Positions 2,045 to 43,713 of a DNA stretch of 43,784 nucleotides are shown piece by piece. Source of the stretch: a miscellaneous Crenarchaeota group-6 archaeon AD8-1 (GTDB lineage: Archaea > Thermoproteota > Bathyarchaeia > Bathyarchaeales > Bathycorpusculaceae); assembly GCA_001273385.1 (NCBI GenBank), contig LFWW01000024.1, positions 1-43,784 on the forward strand, in the 5' to 3' direction. The translations under genes and the position numbers were made by a program. The notes beneath the pieces are model-generated. The model was not told the DNA's origin. It searched no databases and saw only the letters and a list, made by a program, of their open reading frames with translations. Numbering within the stretch: the stretch's first letter is position 1; the number at the start of each line of letters is the position of its first letter.

Positions 2045-2740
2045 ATGGCTTTGGTTGACCCTATAACGCTAATAGTAGTTGTAATAGTGGTAGCTTTCTC
2101 TTCAATTGTAATAATCTTAGCAATGCGAAAAAGAGAGGAAAAGCCAAAAACAATAAAGGAAACCAAAGCTCAACCAGACTTAAGCGGTTTACCTTTTAGA
2201 ATCACAAAAAGTATTCCAAAAACTGAAGCGAATGAAGCGAAAGATGAACTTAGAATCCTTGATGTAGAAAGAGAAATTCTAAGTGATGCAATAAGAAGAC
2301 TATATGAGGCTCATGCAGAAGGAAAAATTTCAGAATCAGAAAGAGATCGTCTTGCTGGGACATATAAAACAAGAATGATGAATATACGAGACTCAATATC
2401 GAAAGATGAAAAGGTTGTAGCCCTTCATGAACTTGAGAATATGCAAGAAGATCTGGTTAAACTTTTTAGTGAAAGATTTGGAGACCTAAATTTCAAAGTT
2501 GAAGAATTGCGTTCTAAAATCGATGTGGAACCTGTTAAAGAGGTAAAAATCAGAACTAAATCATTAGAATCATTGGAAGAACAAGAAGAAGAAATAAAAG
2601 TAGATAAAAAGAGAAAACGTCGTAAATCAACAACTGAACTACCAACTCCTAAGAGCGAAGCAGAAAAAAGAATAGAAGCAATAACAAGCGAAGTAGAAAA
2701 AGTTTTGGACAAATTAGGGCAGATAGAAATTGACTCATAA
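2045..2740 (+). CDS. Membrane-anchored coiled-coil protein
   Basis: The protein has 231 residues. An N-terminal hydrophobic helix at about residues 8-27 is followed by a positively charged stop (RKREEK), which fits a single membrane anchor with the rest in the cytoplasm. Residues about 70-165 are charged and heptad-like (coiled coil), with a motif resembling short helical-hairpin domains (EGKISESERDRL). The tail is lysine- and arginine-rich (about 180-200) and ends in another short helix. I recall similar proteins beside rpiA in uncultured TACK archaea, but no function is known to me. Its stop overlaps the rpiA start by 11 bases, indicating one transcript. An inverted repeat and AT-rich box upstream may be its promoter. 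Confidence 0.8.
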   Translation: MALVDPITLIVVVIVVAFSSIVIILAMRKREEKPKTIKETKAQPDLSGLPFRITKSIPKTEANEAKDELRILDVEREILSDAIRRLYEAHAEGKISESERDRLAGTYKTRMMNIRDSISKDEKVVALHELENMQEDLVKLFSERFGDLNFKVEELRSKIDVEPVKEVKIRTKSLESLEEQEEEIKVDKKRKRRKSTTELPTPKSEAEKRIEAITSEVEKVLDKLGQIEIDS

Positions 2741-3437
2741 TAGAGATTGGATAGATAATGCAAAGAAAAATGCAGCAAAAGTGGCAATTACACATGTTAA
2801 AGACAAATATATTATTGGATTGGGAAGTGGAAGCACTGTTGCATATGCCATTAAAGAGTTAGGTGAAAAAGTAAAAATAGAAAAACTTGAAATTTTTGGA
2901 ATTCCAACCTCATATCAAGCTTTCTTATTAGCAACAAAATATGGGATTAAAATTACTACCTTCGAAGAGCATCCTATTATTGATTTAACAATTGACGGAG
3001 CAGATCAAATTGATCCCAAATTAAATTTGATAAAAGGGATGGGAGCTGCACTAACAAGAGAAAAAATTGTTGCATCGGCTTCAAAAACAAATATAATAAT
3101 AGCTGACAAAAGAAAAAAAGTAACATGCCTAGGTATTCATGATCATCCAGTTCCTGTTGAAGTAATTCCTTTTGCTCTAACTCAGGTTGAGAATCAAATC
3201 AAAAAAATCGGAGGAAAAACTGTTTTACGCAAAGGTACAGGAAAAGTAGGACCCGTAATAACAGATAATGGAAATGTAATACTTGATGCTTTTTTTGGGT
3301 TAATAAAAAATCCCTCACAACTAAATCACCTTCTAAAAATGATTAGCGGCGTTGTTGAAACGGGCCTTTTTATTGATCAAACAGATCTAGTATATTTAGG
3401 TACACCAGATCAAACTGAAAAAATTGAGAAAAAATAA
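2730..3437 (+). CDS. rpiA: Ribose-5-phosphate isomerase A
   Basis: RpiA interconverts ribose 5-phosphate and ribulose 5-phosphate in the cytoplasm, supplying pentose for nucleotides. The 235 residues match the family length. The phosphate-binding loop GLGSGST lies at residues 30-36, the catalytic DGAD motif at about 89, and KGMGAALTREK follows near 103-113. The start is TTG at 2730, which keeps the usual N-terminal helix and overlaps the upstream gene by 11 bases; no ATG fits better. It is the distal gene of a two-gene unit that ends before tRNA-Met. Identification is firm. Confidence 0.95.
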   Translation: MTHNRDWIDNAKKNAAKVAITHVKDKYIIGLGSGSTVAYAIKELGEKVKIEKLEIFGIPTSYQAFLLATKYGIKITTFEEHPIIDLTIDGADQIDPKLNLIKGMGAALTREKIVASASKTNIIIADKRKKVTCLGIHDHPVPVEVIPFALTQVENQIKKIGGKTVLRKGTGKVGPVITDNGNVILDAFFGLIKNPSQLNHLLKMISGVVETGLFIDQTDLVYLGTPDQTEKIEKK

Positions 3438-3531: not shown

Positions 3532-3639
3532 GCCGGGGTAGCCTAGCTTGGCTTAGGGCGCCAGACTCATAATCTGGAGAACAAAGGAGGCCAAACGCCC
3601 AATGTCCAGAAGTCGCGGGCTCGAATCCCGCCCCCGGCA
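3532..3639 (+). tRNA. tRNA-Met (CAT), elongator type, with intron
   Basis: Acceptor GCCGGGG (3532-3538) pairs with CCCCGGC (3632-3638), discriminator A at 3639. The D stem is GCCT/GGGC. The anticodon stem CCAGA/TCTGG (3561-3565, 3573-3577) closes loop CTCATAA with anticodon CAT at 3568-3570. The T stem GCGGG/CCCGC closes loop CTCGAAT. A 32-base insertion (3580-3611) interrupts the variable loop; removing it leaves AGGTC, a standard five-base variable loop. G1-C72 pairing fits elongator rather than initiator tRNA-Met; a tRNA-Ile2 that reads AUA after C34 modification is the less likely alternative. CCA is not encoded. Confidence 0.93.
3580..3611 (+). other. Non-canonical tRNA intron at position 45/46 (variable loop)
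   Basis: The splice sites fit a bulge-helix-bulge motif recognised by archaeal tRNA endonuclease. Exon bases CTGG (3574-3577) pair with intron bases CCAG (3606-3609). The 5' bulge is AG^A and the 3' bulge AA^G, each cut after the second base. The inner helix begins with ACA paired to TGT, and a GGC/GCC hairpin sits deeper in the intron. The outer helix is weak, so this is a relaxed form of the motif. The intron is too short to encode a protein. Confidence 0.85.
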
Positions 3640-43638: not shown

Positions 43639-43713
43639 TGCTCCGGCCGGGATTCGAACCCGGGTCCACGGCTCGAGAGGCCGTTATACTTGACCGGACT
43701 ATACTACCGGAGC
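43639..43713 (-). tRNA. tRNA-Glu (CTC)
   Basis: On the minus strand the acceptor GCTCCGG pairs with CCGGAGC, discriminator A. The D stem GTAT pairs with GTAT through G-T and A-T pairs. The anticodon stem ACGGC/GCCGT closes CTCTCGA with anticodon CTC (43675-43677 complement). The T stem CCGGG/CCCGG closes TTCGAAT. A four-base variable loop GGAC follows. No intron and no encoded CCA. Confidence 0.95.

Follow-up and report, generated by a model that had tools for sequence, protein, structure and literature searches.

The only elongator tRNA-Met gene found in the genome of a Bathyarchaeota MAG is interrupted in its variable region by 32 bases that are, in all likelihood, an archaeal protein-spliced intron, cut by way of a relaxed bulge-helix-bulge (BHB) and processed by a two-gene EndA endonuclease together with RtcB. 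The gene lies in the window considered in this study, by which I mean the whole stretch of DNA that was analysed (43,784 nt). Comparison with close relatives points further: the intron appears to have changed its position many times within the same gene, its core still recognisable.

An interrupted elongator tRNA-Met gene

The region from 3532 to 3639 on the forward strand matches the Rfam tRNA family (RF00005, 55.8 bits, E 1.8e-9), with the acceptor stem (GCCGGGG/CCCCGGC) and the T arm both present, and the Rfam alignment places a 33-nt insert 3' of the anticodon arm. ARAGORN did not find the tRNA-Met gene at these positions. An earlier note on this DNA had read the region as tRNA-Met with a complete anticodon stem-loop, which the Rfam match and the sequence bear out, and had set a 32-nt intron in the variable region, in agreement with the Rfam insert and with the same site in most relatives. 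The extra bases separate G45 (3579) from G46 (3612). Their removal yields the AGGUC variable loop that the note had expected, in a standard cloverleaf fold (-38.3 kcal/mol). The sequence shows both the insertion between 45 and 46 that defines a non-canonical intron at that site and the restoration of a canonical tRNA upon removal that marks archaeal BHB tRNA introns. The parts of the gene are listed in Table 1.

Table 1. Parts of the elongator tRNA-Met gene and of its intron (positions in the window).
Feature	Position	Strand	Basis
Whole gene for elongator tRNA-Met (CAU) with its intron; no encoded CCA	3532..3639	+	RF00005 match, sequence
5' exon, tRNA positions 1-45	3532..3579	+	near-invariant exons among relatives
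Anticodon arm, complete	3561-3565 / 3573-3577	+	CCAGA-CUCAUAA-UCUGG
Anticodon CAT	3568..3570	+	sequence and Rfam
Central helix, 5' strand CUGG (tRNA 40-43, anticodon stem)	3574..3577	+	pairs with 3606-3609
5' bulge AG^A with predicted 5' splice site	3578..3580	+	register from co-variation
Probable 32-nt intron, position 45/46	3580..3611	+	same site in relatives, variable interior; register set by co-variation
Inner helix, 5' strand ACA	3581..3583	+	co-variation with 3603-3605
Intron core GGAGGCC..., variant of GGGG(C/U) core	3586..3599	+	looser motif counts, fold
Small GGC/GCC hairpin within core	3589-3591 / 3597-3599	+	fold
Inner helix, 3' strand UGU	3603..3605	+	co-variation with 3581-3583
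Central helix, 3' strand CCAG, copy of 5' anticodon-stem strand (CCAGA 3561-3565)	3606..3609	+	CCAG at -6..-3 in 77/77
3' bulge AA^G with predicted 3' splice site	3610..3612	+	register from co-variation
3' exon, tRNA positions 46-73	3612..3639	+	sequence, Rfam, relatives

The host genome is a MAG of 1.58 Mb in 83 contigs, 93% complete. The note had described 45/46 as known mainly from some Crenarchaeota; in the strict sense the host lies outside that group, as judged by the closest named records with the same interrupted gene: these are Candidatus Bathyarchaeota or Bathycorpusculum MAGs, a few carrying only the label Nitrososphaerota or Crenarchaeota archaeon. A second elongator tRNA-Met was looked for among the genome's 31 tRNA matches and was not found. 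Since the two other CAU tRNAs are initiator-like (AGCGGGG...CCCCGCU, with A1:U72 and an intron in the anticodon loop) and Ile2-like (GGGCCCG), the gene in the window is the only elongator tRNA-Met found. Elsewhere in the genome, introns were recognised by inspection in tRNAs for His, initiator Met, Ser, Leu, and Trp, in each case in the anticodon loop. Only 31 tRNA matches were obtained from this 93% complete MAG, and further tRNAs whose introns are unusual or more than one in number may have escaped notice. The window also contains an ordinary tRNA-Glu(CUC) gene without intron (43639-43713, reverse strand) and, just upstream of tRNA-Met, a gene for ribose-5-phosphate isomerase A (2730-3437).

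The splice motif and the splicing enzymes

The ends of the introns were compared in relatives selected by exon sequence alone, with 55 and subsequently 77 distinct introns, and helix pairs were counted at anchored positions (in Python), since MAFFT misaligned the CCAG of short introns. The exons are near-invariant, and the introns at 45/46 range from 21 to 41 nt, with variable interiors. Their last six bases are CCAGA(A/G/T), T being rare, in 77/77 cases. They share a motif in which 3-nt bulges, AG^N and AN^G, flank a central helix of 4 bp (CUGG/CCAG), with an inner helix within the intron. The inner pair +2/-7 is kept in all 77 introns by means of five pair types (AU, GC, CG, UA, and GU), and the pair +3/-8 in 76 of them, likewise with five standard pair types. 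Over the subset of 55, the three inner pairs sum to 148, as compared to a mean of 86 and a maximum of 105 in 2000 shuffles, a difference that is inflated because the shuffles ignore kinship; nonetheless, several distinct paired dinucleotides are seen, most of which require a change in both strands. In the central helix there is no co-variation, since the exon strand also serves as the anticodon stem, and the pairing there is therefore argued from conservation.

It is very unlikely that the insert remains unspliced, giving a mature tRNA with a long variable arm like that of class II. The cloverleaf does fold with the insert retained, and the insert has a small hairpin, but its length varies from 21 to 41 nt with unrelated interiors, the splice motif co-varies at the exact junctions, and in some relatives the insert lies in the anticodon loop, where retention is impossible. 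Just as unlikely is that an intron is cut out in some other register, leaving a different variable loop. The outer helix is absent, as described below, and the tRNA-Met of S. tokodaii provides a case in which the predicted intron borders proved wrong (PMC4307357). Against this, AGGUC is recovered in every relative when just this stretch is taken out, and the inner helix pairs in one register only: starting at +2, the two pairs are found in 55 and 54 of the 55 introns, but with a shift of one base in 33 and 5, or in 4 and 12. Both bulges are thereby fixed at 3 nt, and if each cut follows the second base of its bulge, as the published rule has it (PMC4307357), the borders would be G45^A and A^G46. 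That the gene is a pseudogene or its insert an artefact is hardly conceivable: the MAG is split in 83 contigs, but the same gene with intact exons recurs in independent assemblies of many species, and the host genome yielded no other gene that could serve as elongator tRNA-Met.

The helices, bulges, and inner ACA/UGU that the earlier note had drawn are all correctly placed in the sequence (Table 1); its junctions at 45/46 are strongly supported by the co-variation, which gives 3-nt bulges, as in a BHB, for the 77 distinct introns. An exon-side outer helix by the 3' bulge is lacking, U39 and the anticodon loop being unpaired with U47-C48; the predicted fold offers only a distant 30-33/46-48 pairing and falls short of the strict hBHBh' form. 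With the outer helix missing, the motif counts as a relaxed BHB.

Two possible partners of identical sequence are available to the exon strand CUGG, the CCAGA at 3561-3565 and the CCAGA of the intron. The computed energies of the two conformers (mean -45.9 kcal/mol for the BHB and -46.8 kcal/mol for the anticodon arm) are nearly equal, and this makes it plausible that the strand can switch between them. In the precursor, tRNA bases 40-43 would quit the anticodon stem and pair with the CCAG close to the intron's 3' end, producing the relaxed BHB with its bulges AG^A and AA^G. An (alpha-beta)2 EndA made from two genes would cut 3' of the second base in both bulges, RtcB would ligate the exons to give the canonical AGGUC variable loop, and CUGG would then rejoin the anticodon stem.

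The host genome has both of the enzymes called for, with two EndA paralogues (PF01974) and one match to RtcB (PF01139, 590.6 bits). One EndA protein (C37) is closest to the tRNA-splicing endonuclease 2cv8 of S. tokodaii (E 3e-40) and retains the histidine of EHAPY and a lysine, as in catalytic subunits, and the other (C4) lacks the catalytic histidine, with KNVAS where it would stand. The stretch GKPIGISKPK is identical to that of S. tokodaii and may include the conserved lysine of the crenarchaea-specific loop. The earlier note had expected a three-gene endonuclease of broad specificity and proposed that the subunits be typed. Because there are exactly two paralogues, one with the catalytic histidine, the three-gene enzyme is not supported. 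Broad specificity belongs to the two-gene heterotetramer (alpha-beta)2, the type linked to relaxed motifs (PMC6379350), and the pair fits such an endonuclease, into which the two proteins would assemble. Such a tRNA-splicing enzyme can very probably remove the 32-nt intron.

Intron position and core across the order

A pattern that included the insert, run on 398 genomes of the phylum, matched 39, all within the host's own order; because parts of the exons are fixed in this pattern, it could overlook divergent cases elsewhere. A pattern made from the 5' exon only, for which an intron is not required, was applied to 163 genomes from the order, 39 of which gave no match. Most of the genes found were then parsed, resulting in 95 tRNA-Met records (including a few repeated loci). 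The intron is at 45/46 in 79 of these, in the anticodon loop (about 37/38) in 15, and at both sites in one (G418, L237); none of the 95 is an intronless elongator tRNA-Met. A second two-intron gene, found separately (G428:C114:40291-40372, L384), also has introns in the anticodon loop and at 45/46. In both of the two-intron genes, the first intron is without a GGGG core and starts with ATCTG(G), as does the downstream exon; that of G428 starts with ATCTGG and includes CCAGA. Outside the order, some outgroups of the phylum have anticodon-loop introns and others have no intron. The anticodon-loop introns start with ATC, the same as the following exon, so that any border between 37/38 and 40/41 would fit; of these, 37/38 is favoured by BHB rules, with a mismatch in the central helix in all of the introns.

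Position changes were counted on an rpoA1 tree of 40 genomes. (EF-2 was dropped as a marker on account of paralogues; several relatives have two adjacent divergent EF-2 genes, as at G174:C1:468970-473541, and other relatives have one.) The tree requires 8-9 changes of intron position, and well-supported branches alone force 7-8. In genus g28, G030 (L338, anticodon loop) and G437 (L339, 45/46) have identical mature tRNAs and are syntenic over the tRNA and about 1.3 kb downstream, hence at least one of the changes occurred without a change of locus, and transfer of a gene copy to a new place is rejected for at least this pair. Congeners in genus g9 also differ in intron position (L341 and L342 vs. 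L343 and L344), the mature tRNA of G431 being identical to those of G178 and G011, with two differences for G174. The ribose-5-phosphate isomerase A gene precedes tRNA-Met in several genomes, in several families, and with both intron positions. Change at the same locus may reflect either mutation in situ or recombination with the gene of a relative. A simple slide of one intron by eight bases is rejected, as the 37/38 introns have no terminal CCAGA before GTC.

Two kinds of irregularity were encountered along the way. One tRNA-Met-like gene (G444, L215) has an altered anticodon stem (CUCAUAC...) and a G+C-rich insert, and is a pseudogene or an assembly error. Three MAGs, G016 (contigs C37, C71, and C90), G460, and G428, contain more than one elongator tRNA-Met with different 45/46 introns, reflecting either duplication or a mixed bin.

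The introns at the two positions have a core in common. With exon letters excluded for the anticodon-loop introns, GGGG(C/U), GGGUC, or GGGCC occurs in all 16 of them (shuffled mean 1.8), often followed by CAG(A), and in 59 of the 77 at 45/46 (mean 6.0). A looser core that covers the GGAGGCC of the window (3586-3592) is found in 69/77 and 16/16, respectively (shuffled means 12.1 and 3.0). In family f9, the two intron classes contain AGAAAAGGGUCAGAA and AGAAAAGGGUCCAGAA. None of the five other tRNA introns in the host genome has the core. Pairing of a GGGG core with the CCCC of the acceptor stem is rejected, given the GGGUC of the f9 introns. The retention of GGGG(C/U)-(n)-CAG suggests that selection acts on the intron and not on its position.

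I would give an even chance to the general proposition that an essential, single tRNA gene of Bathyarchaeia never loses its intron, which repeatedly moves between 37/38 and 45/46 and leaves the mature tRNA unchanged. The route might be duplication followed by loss: if the block of ATCTGGAG and intron were duplicated in tandem, a new 37/38 intron would arise that contains a copy of the anticodon-stem strand, and the resulting two-intron state (as in G418 and G428) would return to a single intron once either was deleted. The repeats concerned are short and could be convergent.

Relation to known tRNA introns

The intron in the window belongs to a type already known, and 45/46 is among the published sites of archaeal introns (PMC4090602). 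The variable-arm introns of A. pernix tRNA-Lys count among the known cases at 45/46. The closest parallel in motif is the tRNA-Lys(CUU) of that species, whose variable-arm intron also lacks the exon-side flanking helix and whose splicing was confirmed by cDNA (PMC4307357); it concerns a different tRNA, in Crenarchaeota, and that report has no clade-wide survey and no switching of position. The tRNA-Thr(GGU) of Caldiarchaeum subterraneum has an intron at the same position, 45/46, with natural variants that contain one or two introns (PMC3293823), but what sets the variants apart is an additional intron at 24/25 and not a relocated one. The non-canonical introns of Thermoproteales (Pyrobaculum) likewise combine relaxed BHBs at many positions with an (alpha-beta)2 EndA (PMC4090602), but there transposition between different tRNA genes has been proposed, while here the changes are within one gene. 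Canonical introns at 37/38 of archaeal tRNA-Met affect the same tRNA, and those in relatives from the order share the GGGG(C/U)-type core, but their central helix uses the anticodon loop where the present one uses the anticodon stem. In the literature searched, coverage of which was incomplete, I found no description of a 45/46 intron in Bathyarchaeota tRNA-Met, nor of repeated relocation of an intron within one tRNA gene.

The origin of archaeal tRNA introns at odd positions is debated, the proposals being transposition between genes, integration of an element, and relics of split genes. The order examined here offers a natural series in one orthologous gene: among close relatives whose mature tRNAs are identical, the intron is found at 37/38, at 45/46, or at both. 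With this series, intron relocation can be put to a direct test, as can any function of the conserved core. Another lesson is that tRNA finders without handling of archaeal introns miss an essential tRNA in this lineage.
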